From Patescibacteria group bacterium (lineage in GTDB: Bacteria; Patescibacteriota; Patescibacteriia; Magasanikbacterales; GWA2-37-8), in contig JAQTYG010000006.1 in the NCBI GenBank assembly GCA_028688375.1, positions 1-54,354 on the forward strand: DNA of 54,354 nt, read 5' to 3'. Below the pieces are notes generated by a model. It made no database searches. It saw nothing but the letters and a program-made list of their open reading frames with translations, and was not told the DNA's origin. Positions 18,552-47,519 of this stretch are shown one piece after another (the stretch's first letter is position 1; every line of letters begins with the position of its first letter). The position numbers and the translations under genes were made by a program.

Positions 18552-19436
18552 ATGCACAAAGAGCAAAACGATATCATCGGAATAAAACCGAGTATGTGCG
18601 GAATCAGCATTGATGTCCGCGCCTTAGCGCGACGTCTTTTTTCAAAGAAAAATACGGAGCCGGCGATAAAAGTTGCCGAGCGGTTTTTACAAATATTCAA
18701 AGATCATGGCATATCCCAAATGCAAATTCCGCGATTTATTCCTGAAATCAGCATTGATAATTTACGCGATATCGGTTCCCTCCTGCCGGTGCTTACAGAC
18801 GACGTGGTCAATAAATGCGCGAAGCTCTTTAACATACGCCGTACATGGCTTGAAGGTGTCGAGGATCAAATATATGACTGCCATTGGTGCTACACTGACC
18901 CAGGAAGATTCTTTGAAGACATCGCCGCCGTCAAACCCAACGGCGTTCTTTTCCCCGTCATTGCCCTAAGTACTGAAAAGAGCTTGGACCGTCACAGCCG
19001 CCGCAAGCAACCAATTGTGATTTGCCTCGTAGAAAGAATCGCCGAGCTGGACGACAAAGAAATACGGCGCTACACGATTTTTAATGATGGTTGGGACTGG
19101 AGTTATCCGAAAGCTCGTATTCAGCTTAAAGCGCTAGTTAGGGCTCTTAGCCGAGTCGGCATCCCCGTGGTGCCCATTTACCGAATAGCCAAAAAAAATC
19201 TGAAAAAAATTGAATCTGGCCACTGTGTGCCAAGATTATACTTGGAGGATAGCCGCCTTCACCGCGTTTCTCTCGAAGACTATGTGCGAAGCTCTGAGGA
19301 GAGCGCGGTAGCCAAAGAAACGGATGAATTACCAGTTGTGATAGAATGCATAGACCACTATAATCTTAAAAGTCCGCGGCTCAGTCCGATACTCAAAAAG
19401 TGTTCGACGCAAACACATAATAATATATTATTATGA
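18552..19436 (+). CDS. Orphan protein with XRE-like HTH region
   Basis: ISIDNLRDIGSLLPVLTDDVVNKCAKLFNIRRTWLEGVEDQIY resembles the end of an XRE HTH; remainder unknown. Confidence 0.6.
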   Translation: MHKEQNDIIGIKPSMCGISIDVRALARRLFSKKNTEPAIKVAERFLQIFKDHGISQMQIPRFIPEISIDNLRDIGSLLPVLTDDVVNKCAKLFNIRRTWLEGVEDQIYDCHWCYTDPGRFFEDIAAVKPNGVLFPVIALSTEKSLDRHSRRKQPIVICLVERIAELDDKEIRRYTIFNDGWDWSYPKARIQLKALVRALSRVGIPVVPIYRIAKKNLKKIESGHCVPRLYLEDSRLHRVSLEDYVRSSEESAVAKETDELPVVIECIDHYNLKSPRLSPILKKCSTQTHNNILL

Positions 19437-43187: not shown

Positions 43188-43754
43188 ATGGGTATAGTTT
43201 ACATTATTCTTATTGTCTTGGCAATAGTGGCCGTTTGGCTGATTGCCACGTTTAATGGCTTAATTCGGAGCAAAAATCAGGTGGATGAAGCCTTCAGCGA
43301 TATTGATGTTCAACTCAAGCGCCGTTATGATTTAATCCCGAATTTAGTGGAGACGGTCAAGGGTTATATGTCTCATGAGGCCGGTACTTTGGAAAAAGTT
43401 ACCGCCGCGCGCGCCGCGGCCATGAGCGTGCATGACGACAAAAACGCTACTTTGGCTCAACGCGAACAAGCGGAAAATATGCTGTCCAATACTTTGAAAT
43501 CTTTGTTCGCCGTAACGGAAAGCTATCCGGATTTGAAAGCCAGCCAAAATTTCTTGCAGCTGCAAGACGAATTATCCGACACGGAAAATAAAATCCAAGC
43601 GGCTCGCCGATTTTACAATAGCAACGTCCGTGACTTCAACACCAAGATTCAGGTCTTCCCGACTAACATGATCGCCGGCATGCTGAAATTCGCCAAGTAT
43701 GATTTCTTCCAGGCGAGCGAGGGTGAGAAACAAAATGTAAAAGTGCAATTCTAA
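43188..43754 (+). CDS. lemA: LemA family protein
   Basis: KNQVDEAFSDIDVQLKRRYDLIPNLVETVKGYMSHE. Confidence 0.95.
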   Translation: MGIVYIILIVLAIVAVWLIATFNGLIRSKNQVDEAFSDIDVQLKRRYDLIPNLVETVKGYMSHEAGTLEKVTAARAAAMSVHDDKNATLAQREQAENMLSNTLKSLFAVTESYPDLKASQNFLQLQDELSDTENKIQAARRFYNSNVRDFNTKIQVFPTNMIAGMLKFAKYDFFQASEGEKQNVKVQF

Positions 43755-43763
43755 CTTTCATCG

Positions 43764-44237
43764 ATGTCGAAACTCAGAAAATTTCAACGACGGGATACTG
43801 TGCCCGCCGCGCTATTAATAGCCGACACTTATACGCAATTCAATAGCGGAGAATATTTTAATAAAAAAGCCGTACAACAATATATCGATTATTATGACCC
43901 GGAAAAAAACTCCACGACTGATCTATTGGAAAAATTTAAAAAAACACAGATTTTTTTCGTTGCAATTGATAGAAATAAAATCATAGGTCTAATCAGGGGA
44001 AACCCCGGCAAAATTGTAAACCTGTTTGTTGACGGCAAATATCATCATAACGGAACAGGAAAAAAACTGATGGAACGGTTTCAGGCTGAGGCAAAAAAAA
44101 TAAATTCAAAAGAAATAAAAATTAAATCGTCACTTTATGCGGTACCTTTTTATAAAAAAATGGGCTTCAAAAAAACAACAGGCATGCGAAATTTTCATGG
44201 ATTAAAGATTTGGCCGATGAGGAAAAAGGTGGGCTAG
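43764..44237 (+). CDS. GNAT-family N-acetyltransferase
   Basis: VNLFVDGKYHHNGTGKKLMERFQAEAKK; YAVPFYKKMGFKKT. Confidence 0.85.
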   Translation: MSKLRKFQRRDTVPAALLIADTYTQFNSGEYFNKKAVQQYIDYYDPEKNSTTDLLEKFKKTQIFFVAIDRNKIIGLIRGNPGKIVNLFVDGKYHHNGTGKKLMERFQAEAKKINSKEIKIKSSLYAVPFYKKMGFKKTTGMRNFHGLKIWPMRKKVG

Positions 44238-44309
44238 CCCCTTCCCATCTGGGTATTTTTTGCATCCATTCCATGCGGTGGTTGACACCGAGTTTTGTTT
44301 GTGTTAACG

Positions 44310-44315
44310 TATAAT
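44310..44315 (+). promoter_or_regulatory. Consensus -10 box upstream of the peptide gene
   Basis: TATAAT; a TTGACA lies at 44282-44287 but the 22-nt spacer is atypical. Confidence 0.4.
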
Positions 44316-44368
44316 CGTTGATTCGAGCAAATTCGCTCTTTTCAAAACCAACAGGAAGGAGGTGGAAC

Positions 44369-44443
44369 ATGAAGACGGGACTTAAAAAGCGCGTCGCGGT
44401 GAAAGTACTCAAGTGTCGCTGCATGACTTGCGACGTCAACTGA
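44369..44443 (+). CDS. Candidate RiPP precursor peptide, 24 aa
   Basis: MKTGLKKRVAVKVLKCRCMTCDVN; RBS aaggaggtgg 5-6 nt upstream; directly precedes a radical SAM/SPASM gene; below the ORF-track length cutoff. Confidence 0.65.
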   Translation: MKTGLKKRVAVKVLKCRCMTCDVN

Positions 44444-44475
44444 CACCCCTTTCATGACCTGGCCCATCTCTGTGC

Positions 44476-44517
44476 AACGGCCGGAAACACACTTCGTGTT
44501 TTCGGCCTTTTTTAAGA
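44476..44517 (+). terminator. Terminator/attenuator between peptide and radical SAM gene
   Basis: ggccggaaacacacttcgtgttttcggccttttttaa. Confidence 0.75.
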
Positions 44518-44537
44518 ACGCCGAAAGAAAGAAGGAC

Positions 44538-45595
44538 ATGATGTTTGAAGTCGAAACCGAAGAAGCGATTTTCGACATGGAATTCTGCCATGTCCAGGTC
44601 AATATCACTTCACGATGCAACATGCGGTGCGAACACTGTCGCGGAGCTTACTCTGACTTTAAAGATGTCGACTTGGCGGTTGAAGACTTCCAAGCACTGG
44701 CAGAATTTAGTTGCCGCCACATGTCGGATGGCTGCGGTTTCCTCATCTCGGGCGGCGAGCCGTTGTTGCACCCGCGCTTCAATGACATAATCCGCGCGCT
44801 GAAGAAACATGTAAAAAAATCCGCTTTCCTGTCTCTGACGACTAACGGCCTTATTTTGAACACCAGACATTTGGAAATGCTTAAATCTCTAGAATTTCCA
44901 GAAGTCCGCGTCTCAATCAGTCTCGATAGCGTCGACTCAGTCAGACACAACGCGTTCCGCCACCATCCTCGTGCCTTCAAAAATGCTCTCAGAGCCATCA
45001 AATTGGCTAGCTCAACCGACGGCATTAAATGCCTAGTAAGGGCTTCTATTCAGAAAGACCAACTGGGAGAGGTCGAGAAATTGGCGGATTTAGCGGAAGC
45101 GCACGGTGCCAAGGTGCTGTCCATCGCGAGCATCATTCCCGTCGGAAATGCGCTTAAGCGATCTTGCCTTTACTTCGACCGGGATACGAAAAAAGAGCTT
45201 ATCGAAATGGTAGCGACGTTGCGGAAGCGCCATACTGGAATAATGATCGACGTGAATGACCCATTGGCTTATGTGGCCAATATGAAAACCGGGGAAGAGG
45301 GAGAATACGGCGGATGCATCGCCGGAATCGGCACTTTTAGCGTGGAACCGGACGGTTCAATGCTGCCATGCCCGGTTTTGCCCAATCAAGCGATCATGAA
45401 CATTATCGGAAAAACTCCGGATGAAATGACCCGCGAATTTTCTCAGAGTACCTTCGTCCGCGCGCTCGTCGGAAGAAAGCTTAAAGGAAAATGCGGTTCA
45501 TGCAAACTCCGCTTTACCTGCGGCGGTTGCCGCGCCCGGGCCCCGAATGGTACCGGAGTGACTACCTCGATGAAGATCCGGACTGCTGGCTCTAA
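44538..45595 (+). CDS. Radical SAM/SPASM peptide-modifying enzyme (probable -1 frameshift near 45538-45545)
   Basis: NITSRCNMRCEHC, SGGEPLLHPRF, SPASM CGSCKLRFTCGGCRARA; after the gggcccc run the alternate frame encodes EWYRSDYLDEDPDCWL*, ending at 45595 just before a terminator. Confidence 0.85.
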
Positions 45596-45604
45596 CGGAG
45601 ATAC

Positions 45605-45643
45605 AGGCGGTAAGCCCTCAGGGCTTACCGCCATTTTTTTCGC
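45605..45643 (+). terminator. Rho-independent terminator
   Basis: ggcggtaagccctcagggcttaccgccattttttt. Confidence 0.8.
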
Positions 45644-45731
45644 AAATTCAGAATTACAGTCACTGTAGTTGAATTATCCAAAAAAAATACATATAATAGA
45701 CAGGGTCTGAATACTATGATATTACATCCTT

Positions 45732-46637
45732 ATGTATAGCGAAATCACCTCCAATAAGCGCAAATCAATTTTCCTGGCGATGATTTTCATCGCCCTGATT
45801 ATTTTGCTTGGTTGGACTTTTGACCAAATTTACGGCGGGGGCAGAACATATAGCGGAATAATTTTTGCCGTTTTGTTTTCTTTGGGCATGACGGCTATCT
45901 CGTATTTTTCCGGTGACAAAATCGCCTTGTCAGTCTCCGGCGCTAAACCGATTGAGCATGACGCCAATAAATATGTTTTTCATCTGGTGGAAAATCTCTG
46001 CATCGCCGCCGGCACGCCGATGCCAAAAATATATTTGATTGAAGACCCGGCGATAAATGCCTTTGCCACCGGCCGCGACCCGAAAAATGCCTCCATCGCG
46101 GTCACCCGCGGGGCGATTGAAAAATTGACCAACGAGGAATTGGAAGGCGTCATCGCCCACGAACTGTCGCACATAAAAAATTATGACATCCGCTTTATGA
46201 TGCTGGTCGCGGTGATGGTCGGCGCGATTACCATTATGGCCGACTTTATGTTGCGCTCCGGCGGACTATTTCGCGGAGGAAAAAGTGATAACCGTGATGG
46301 CGGCTCGCAACTTTTTGCCATTTTAATGATTGTCGGTATTATTCTCGCTATTCTTTCGCCACTTATCGCCGAACTGATTAAGCTGGCCATTTCCCGCCGG
46401 CGCGAATATCTGGCCGACGCCTCAAGCGCGCTTTTGACGCGTTATCCCGAGGGGTTGGCCAACGCCCTGGAAAAAATTGCCAATGAAAATTTGCCGATGA
46501 AGAAAGCCTCAACCGCCACGGCGCATCTGTTTATCGCCAATCCATTCAAAGGCGGACGCAAAAAATTCGCCGCGCTGATGAGCACCCATCCGCCGGTGGA
46601 AGATAGAATACAAAAATTACGGACAATGGGAGTTTAA
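45732..46637 (+). CDS. htpX: M48 zinc metalloprotease HtpX
   Basis: GVIAHELSHIKNYD, EYLADASSALLTRYPEGL, STHPPVEDRIQKL. Confidence 0.94.
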   Translation: MYSEITSNKRKSIFLAMIFIALIILLGWTFDQIYGGGRTYSGIIFAVLFSLGMTAISYFSGDKIALSVSGAKPIEHDANKYVFHLVENLCIAAGTPMPKIYLIEDPAINAFATGRDPKNASIAVTRGAIEKLTNEELEGVIAHELSHIKNYDIRFMMLVAVMVGAITIMADFMLRSGGLFRGGKSDNRDGGSQLFAILMIVGIILAILSPLIAELIKLAISRRREYLADASSALLTRYPEGLANALEKIANENLPMKKASTATAHLFIANPFKGGRKKFAALMSTHPPVEDRIQKLRTMGV

Positions 46638-47038: not shown

Positions 47039-47458
47039 TTATCCCCTCCTTTCCAAGGAGGGGCTGGGGGTGGTTGCCGAGGCAGCGACCCATTTTTGAT
47101 TTAAGATTATACAAACATTATATAAATCGGCAAGAACATTTTTCAAATCATTCAAAATTTGTCCACTGTTATAACGACGAACCGTAATGCCGTTTAATTC
47201 TAAAAACTCATCTCTTGTCACATCTTTTTCAAACGCCTTTTCGTTGCCGTGCGTAATGCCGTCAACTTCAACGGCCAATTTCAATTTAGGGCAATAGAAA
47301 TCTACGACATACTTCCCGACTCCATGTTGCCGGCGAAATTTATAACCCAACGAACTGCAATTGATATGCTTCCAAAGAACAGCTTCGGATTTTGTCATTG
47401 AATGACGTAATTTATTCCGAAAATCAACATTTTTACGACGATTAAATATTTTCGTCAT
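47039..47458 (-). CDS. DUF559 (Vsr-like) endonuclease-domain protein
   Basis: LRHSMTKSEAVLWKHINCSSLGYKFRRQHGVGKYVVDFYCPKLKLAVEVDG; likely start MTKIFNRR at 47458. Confidence 0.88.
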   Translation of the reverse strand: MTKIFNRRKNVDFRNKLRHSMTKSEAVLWKHINCSSLGYKFRRQHGVGKYVVDFYCPKLKLAVEVDGITHGNEKAFEKDVTRDEFLELNGITVRRYNSGQILNDLKNVLADLYNVCIILNQKWVAASATTPSPSLERRG

Positions 47459-47519
47459 ACATTTTAAATCTCCGGCAACCCTCCCTGCCCTCCCTTGGTA
47501 AGGGAGGGACACGAGATGT

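Follow-up and report, generated by a model that had tools for sequence, protein, structure and literature searches.

A short cysteine-bearing peptide paired with a radical SAM/SPASM enzyme: a probable minimal peptide-modification cassette in Patescibacteria

Does a very short open reading frame (ORF) directly upstream of a radical S-adenosylmethionine (SAM)/SPASM enzyme gene encode a real peptide, and could this peptide be the substrate of the enzyme? The question is raised by a stretch of 54,354 nucleotides (the window) of contig JAQTYG010000006.1 from a Patescibacteria group bacterium (assembly GCA_028688375.1), for which an earlier note had proposed a very small system for a ribosomally synthesised and post-translationally modified peptide (RiPP). 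The 24-aa ORF, the ribosome-binding site AAGGAGGTGG and the hairpin with T-run on which that proposal was built are all present. We conclude that peptide and enzyme very probably constitute an undescribed two- or three-gene system making a modified peptide. More specifically, we read the pair as a minimal, horizontally moving radical-SAM RiPP cassette which would install a cross-link centred on cysteine, most probably a thioether, and we give this reading a probability of roughly three in four.

The pairing itself is seen throughout the relatives of the enzyme. Profile searches at the level of order (86 genomes), class (383) and phylum (381) resulted in a family of 11 members (G000, which is the window, G036, G155, G256, G111, G244, G318, G542, G756, G716 and G596), among which the G318 enzyme is truncated by a contig end and the G596 enzyme is also truncated. 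In the class search a gap separates the lowest-scoring member, at 341 bits, from the following protein, at 122 bits; in the phylum search full-length members score at least 468 bits and G634, the outgroup, 304 bits. All 11 members have a peptide ORF of 20-37 aa, located 63-94 nt upstream of the enzyme on the same strand, and no peptide was found in the 270 upstream bases available for the outgroup. The earlier note had named two observations that would speak against it, enzyme homologues consistently lacking the short ORF and a short ORF without codon-level conservation, and neither is what we see.

The peptides have a basic N-terminus and can be assigned to two types. Type A comprises the window peptide MKTGLKKRVAVKVLKCRCMTCDVN together with MKTRIRVRILKCRCFTCDSN and MKKRAKNPDTNKKRVRVTMLKCRCFTCDSN and ends in the pattern KCRC[MF]TCDxN. 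Type B carries RIGKGSC[SGA]IC[DS] (GKGSCxICD) at its extreme C-terminus, and the G542 peptide, RIGQNGCRTCDTNG, is intermediate. Both cysteines of the CxxC, C18 and C21, are invariant, and K15 and D22 are nearly so. The residue following the CxxC is Asp in 10 of the 11 peptides, and the PapA-type motif Cys-x3-Asp (C18-x3-D22) is found equally often. The core had been described as CxCxxC, but the invariant part is CxxC(D) and the additional CxC cysteine is restricted to the clade of the window. The peptides end in CD, CS, CDxN or CDTNG, and none has the VY of MftA. For 15 aligned codons of type B there are 126 synonymous versus 61 non-synonymous codon differences, against 17:182 and 25:167 in the two shifted frames; by codon position the differences are 55/54/161, with third positions differing about three times as often. 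As these counts are pairwise among related sequences, they show a direction and not an exact probability. We also scanned whole genomes with degenerate core patterns. The type A pattern found three cassettes and nothing else in 383 genomes, and the type B pattern found four known cassettes and one chance match with an in-frame stop in 381 genomes, a sample which lacked some type-B members. Reversed control patterns of both cores gave zero matches in the same genomes.

The enzymes are 349-360 aa long (about 355) and are composed of a radical SAM domain and a SPASM region with seven cysteines. Every scanned member has the CxxxCxxC cluster site and the Radical_SAM domain, and intact copies keep the SPASM cysteines as C-x12-G-x4-C, C-x2-C-x5-C-x3-C and a last C in the family alignment. 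In the window, the enzyme starting at 44538 with CNMRCEHC (44616-44639) and the SPASM-like CGSCKLRFTCGGC (45492-45530) was found as the earlier note had described it, and it matches Pfam PF04055 (E-value 2.4e-17). Among proteins of solved structure, SkfB and CteB are nearest in sequence. A predicted structure of the G155 enzyme (mean pLDDT, the predicted local distance difference test, 81), built from only ten sequences, has its nearest folds in SuiB with its precursor, which is the best match overall, and in SkfB, CteB, PqqE and anSME; EpeE also matches. Before the barrel the model has only a short N-terminal beta hairpin. Taken together, the proteins of solved structure nearest in sequence and in fold belong to the RiPP maturases (SkfB, CteB, SuiB and PqqE).

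No curated maturase model in NCBIfam reaches its cut-off for the enzyme family. The scores are 74-78 bits for PapB (NF047865) in the tabulated members against a cut-off of 340, 81 bits for the AlbA subtilosin/sactipeptide maturase (NF012164) against 850 and 61.5 bits for the mycofactocin maturase (TIGR03962) against 265; NirJ2 (TIGR04055) scores 129 and 159 bits against 500. Searches of the open-access literature, with most subscription papers outside this scope, found no radical-SAM RiPP of this type, and the earlier note likewise had recognised no family. In its logic the cassette resembles a radical-SAM RiPP system, and it lies outside every curated family tested. The genome of the window has a second, distant radical SAM/SPASM gene (L002, 26% identity).

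How could such a small system work? We propose that the peptide is the substrate of the enzyme, that its Lys/Arg-rich front with a (K/R)xxV(R/K)[IV]x(K) stretch serves as a short leader, and that the last 8-11 or so residues, which contain the invariant C-x-x-C(-D), form the core. The SPASM enzyme, with its radical cluster and two auxiliary clusters, would abstract a hydrogen from a core residue, and a thioether bond would most likely join the resulting carbon to the sulfur of a cysteine. Thioethers are common where SPASM enzymes are found beside short Cys-bearing peptides. PapB, for example, links the Cys sulfur to the Asp beta-carbon within Cys-x3-Asp, and the motif has been defined as Cys-x3-Asp/Glu (PMC9413430). 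By analogy with PapA, Cys-x3-Asp would be the leading candidate for the linkage. The absence of conserved aromatic residues from the core argues against bonds of the streptide or pyrroloquinoline quinone (PQQ) type, and together with Cys18-x3-Asp22 in 10 of the 11 peptides this makes a Cys-centred thioether our leading guess.

A third gene belongs to the type-B loci. Neighbourhood comparison found a 155-aa class I SAM methyltransferase (Pfam Methyltransf_23) in six of them, downstream of the cassette in G036, G155 and G256 and upstream in G756, G716 and G596. It was not found in the type A genomes, G542, G318 (where the contig ends inside the enzyme), 16 cassette-free genomes or the outgroup. 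The retention of the methyltransferase despite a rearranged gene order speaks for a functional link. In type B it would probably add a methyl group after the cross-link, perhaps on the C-terminal Asp. The presence of the methyltransferase goes together with tail-less peptides ending in CD, with six loci that have it and four that lack it, a correlation for which a single event could account. A Pol-beta-like nucleotidyltransferase lies directly 3' of the type-A cassettes in G111 and G244 (L203 and L204). We rejected it as a general partner since it is absent from the window genome and from all type-B genomes tested, and is thus at most a local addition; it is also absent from the cassette-free relatives tested. 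As a side observation, type-A peptides end in Asn, and the nucleotidyltransferase is the neighbour at two type-A loci.

All 11 loci have a hairpin between peptide and enzyme, with a sequence that depends on the clade. The T-run is weak or absent at several loci, and in G244 and G596 the gap as a whole folds no more strongly than shuffled sequence does. The hairpin is probably a partial terminator or a 3'-end stabiliser which raises the peptide over the enzyme, so that more peptide than enzyme transcripts would be made. In three type-B loci (L157 at 9577, L158 at 8392 and L162 at 2627) the transcript leader opens with a boxA-like antitermination sequence, GCTCTTTAACA with 0-1 mismatch, in each case the sole such match of the locus. 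Because G155 and G318 are closely related and the window leader has no good match, we leave this as a side observation. An exact GCTCTTTAACA is found at 18824-18834 on the forward strand of the window, distant from the cassette.

An obvious question is whether the short ORF might instead be a regulatory leader peptide, in which ribosomes stalling at the Cys codons control read-through of the hairpin, as in an attenuator. The order of short ORF and terminator-like hairpin at all loci and the conserved Cys codons would fit this. But conservation is not confined to potential regulatory codons as expected of an attenuator: many other residues (K, R, V, I, G, S and D) are conserved with synonymous change, including a Ser that goes from AGY to TCC. 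Several hairpins have no clear T-run, the enzyme gene does not belong to cysteine biosynthesis, the link with the methyltransferase is left unexplained, and we see no antiterminator fold that would compete with the hairpin, although no systematic search for one was made. We consider this explanation very improbable. The peptide could also be an unmodified small metal or redox protein working beside the enzyme, for instance by donating electrons or carrying metal, with the enzyme acting on a different substrate such as a tetrapyrrole. CxxC is a common metal and redox motif and NirJ2/AhbD is the best curated match of the enzyme. Those matches are, however, far under their cut-offs, the flanks share no heme-gene cluster, a folded redox protein would rarely be as small as 20-37 aa with a basic front of variable length, and the nearest solved folds are peptide maturases. 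We consider this possibility improbable.

If the peptide is the substrate, its modification might still be something other than a thioether, such as epimerisation, a C-C bond, oxidative decarboxylation or the excision of a cofactor as for PQQ or mycofactocin. The fold matches include SuiB and PqqE, which form C-C bonds, and the epimerase EpeE, and the conserved residues lie near the C-terminus as in MftA. Yet neither Tyr nor Trp is conserved in the core, its cysteines are the only two invariant residues, and the flanks have no gene of a cofactor pathway in common, PqqD-like or other. Such chemistry seems unlikely to us, but deserves to be kept in mind. Several observations weigh against a Cys-centred RiPP cassette too. 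The window enzyme is broken in its frame and has lost its seventh and last SPASM cysteine in that frame, among curated models the enzyme sequence matches NirJ2/AhbD-type tetrapyrrole enzymes best (though far under the cut-off), and Cys-x3-Asp is not universal, with Ser replacing Asp in G716. The cassette also has no transporter, leader peptidase or RiPP recognition element (RRE) domain; for the PqqD-like RRE, a leader-binding domain that many but not all such pairs have, this holds for the Pfam scans of the enzymes and for the shared neighbours, the remaining genome not having been searched.

The taxonomic distribution of the cassette is rare and patchy, with 2 of the 86 genomes of the order and 7 of the 383 in the class sample. 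The enzyme tree is discordant with taxonomy: G000 and G036 belong to the same order, yet have types A and B. The two peptide types coincide with well-supported enzyme clades (support 100/100 and 96/92). In the window, the cassette and a GNAT gene split a lemA-M48 pair (43188-46637), and as these two genes are adjacent in 16 of 20 relatives, the cassette was probably inserted there. A scan of a genome collection with the single window protein gave only Bacteroidota enzymes of 24-25% identity, with patterns that are too strict to judge the distribution beyond the phylum. A viral origin was rejected, with neither an orthologue nor the peptide pattern in viral contigs, and so was carriage on plasmids, where every match is below 60% identity (best 29%) and the matches listed are mostly of TIGR04053 or PqqE type. 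PADLOC yields only generic viperin-like radical SAM matches, against a defence system, and the Rfam matches in the window are two tRNAs only, against a known RNA element. A giant frame of 3030 aa in G716 is an artefact from masked bases. The assembly of the window has 969 kb in 33 contigs and sampled genomes of the phylum have 0.4-2.0 Mb, sizes which fit a bacterium of the candidate phyla radiation (CPR) type, as the earlier note had supposed.

The features of the window locus are collected in Table 1. An exact AGGAGG correctly spaced before a start is found at 8 starts in the 54-kb window, that of the 24-aa ORF among them. The cassette may have a candidate promoter of its own, recognised by eye in the sequence; it was not among the matches of the consensus scan, and TTGACA with 16-18-nt spacing is also found 5' of the peptide in several relatives. 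The reading frame of the enzyme breaks after CGGCRARA, with a GGGCCCC run nearby. In relatives the C-terminus is DPxC followed by 1-5 residues, and its window equivalent, SDYLDEDPDCWL, sits in another frame, where it ends at 45595. The end near 45643 given in the earlier note is therefore not the ancestral one. The frame break is either an assembly error or a mutation in a decaying gene. The GNAT gene is not conserved with the cassette, as neighbourhood comparison found no shared cluster. At 47039-47512 we noted by eye an ORF of the DUF559/Vsr-like endonuclease type, a relative of which lies in the cassette neighbourhood of G256.

Table 1. Coordinates of the cassette and flanking genes in the window.
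Feature	Position	Strand	Basis and remarks
LemA gene, left neighbour	43188-43754	+	Pfam PF04011; beside M48 gene in 16 of 20 relatives
GNAT acetyltransferase, left neighbour	43764-44237	+	Pfam PF13673
Candidate promoter	44282-44315	+	By eye: TTGACA at 44282, TAACGT at 44305-44310 (17-nt spacer), overlapping TATAAT at 44310 (22-nt spacer)
Ribosome-binding site AAGGAGGTGG	44356-44365	+	Sequence; exact AGGAGG-start pair
Putative precursor peptide MKTGLKKRVAVKVLKCRCMTCDVN, type A, 24 aa	44369-44443	+	Homologues in 11 of 11 loci, codon-level conservation, type A pattern limited to cassettes
12-bp hairpin and T-run between peptide and enzyme	44479-44513	+	Sequence; hairpin with T-run also placed at 44479-44507
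Radical SAM/SPASM enzyme, putative peptide maturase	44538-45595	+	Pfam PF04055, family alignment, G155 model; in-frame ORF continues to 45668
Frame break, last 20 or so codons of the enzyme	45531-45595	+	C-terminus of relatives with seventh SPASM Cys falls in another frame
Strong terminator closing the unit, second after the hairpin	45606-45640	+	Sequence; also placed at 45606-45632
M48 (HtpX-like) peptidase, right neighbour	45732-46637	+	Pfam PF01435

How does the cassette compare with known systems? It shares with the PapA/PapB ranthipeptides of the freyrasin type (NF047865) a SPASM maturase, a Cys-x3-Asp core and a short cassette, but has one motif where PapA has six, a tiny basic leader, a methyltransferase in type B, Ser for Asp in one relative and scores far under the PapB cut-off. 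SkfB and AlbA (sactipeptides) and CteB (SCIFF thioether) are the nearest solved sequences and folds to the enzyme family, and have SPASM domains with two auxiliary clusters and a Cys-bearing precursor adjoining the enzyme. They are longer, at about 410-450 aa, whereas our family scores far under the AlbA cut-off and comes without transporter or protease. SuiB/SuiA of streptide and other streptococcal radical-SAM RiPPs resemble it in combining a small peptide with a SPASM enzyme and in the best overall fold match; streptide, however, has a Lys-Trp C-C bond, and here the core is different and no Trp is conserved. The NirJ2, AhbD and TIGR04053 SPASM enzymes are the best curated sequence matches and of the same length class, but the family stays below 40% of the curated cut-offs, and their known substrates are tetrapyrroles (NirJ2, AhbD) or are unknown, and not a CxxC peptide. 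Graspetide clusters have been reported from CPR bacteria (PMC8939145); these are of RiPP type and from the same radiation of ultra-small bacteria, but use ATP-grasp chemistry with unrelated precursors and enzymes.

CPR bacteria have genomes of about one megabase and little biosynthesis. Despite this scant biosynthesis, the cassette is kept and exchanged across many CPR families. We tentatively put forward, as a bolder and rather doubtful extension, that it represents a new radical-SAM RiPP class native to CPR-type bacteria and spread as a two- or three-gene cassette, in which a near-leaderless CxxCD peptide is cross-linked without an RRE and methylated in one branch, giving a small product of undescribed structure that might be a metal ligand, a cofactor or a host-cell effector. 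If the peptide is modified, the cassette would rank with the smallest RiPP systems that function autonomously, and it might also represent the first radical-SAM RiPP family described from CPR bacteria, as none was found in the open-access papers searched. With a substrate of 20-37 aa, an enzyme of about 355 aa and an optional methyltransferase, it is a compact and testable maturase, and it offers a handle on the molecules made by CPR episymbionts.
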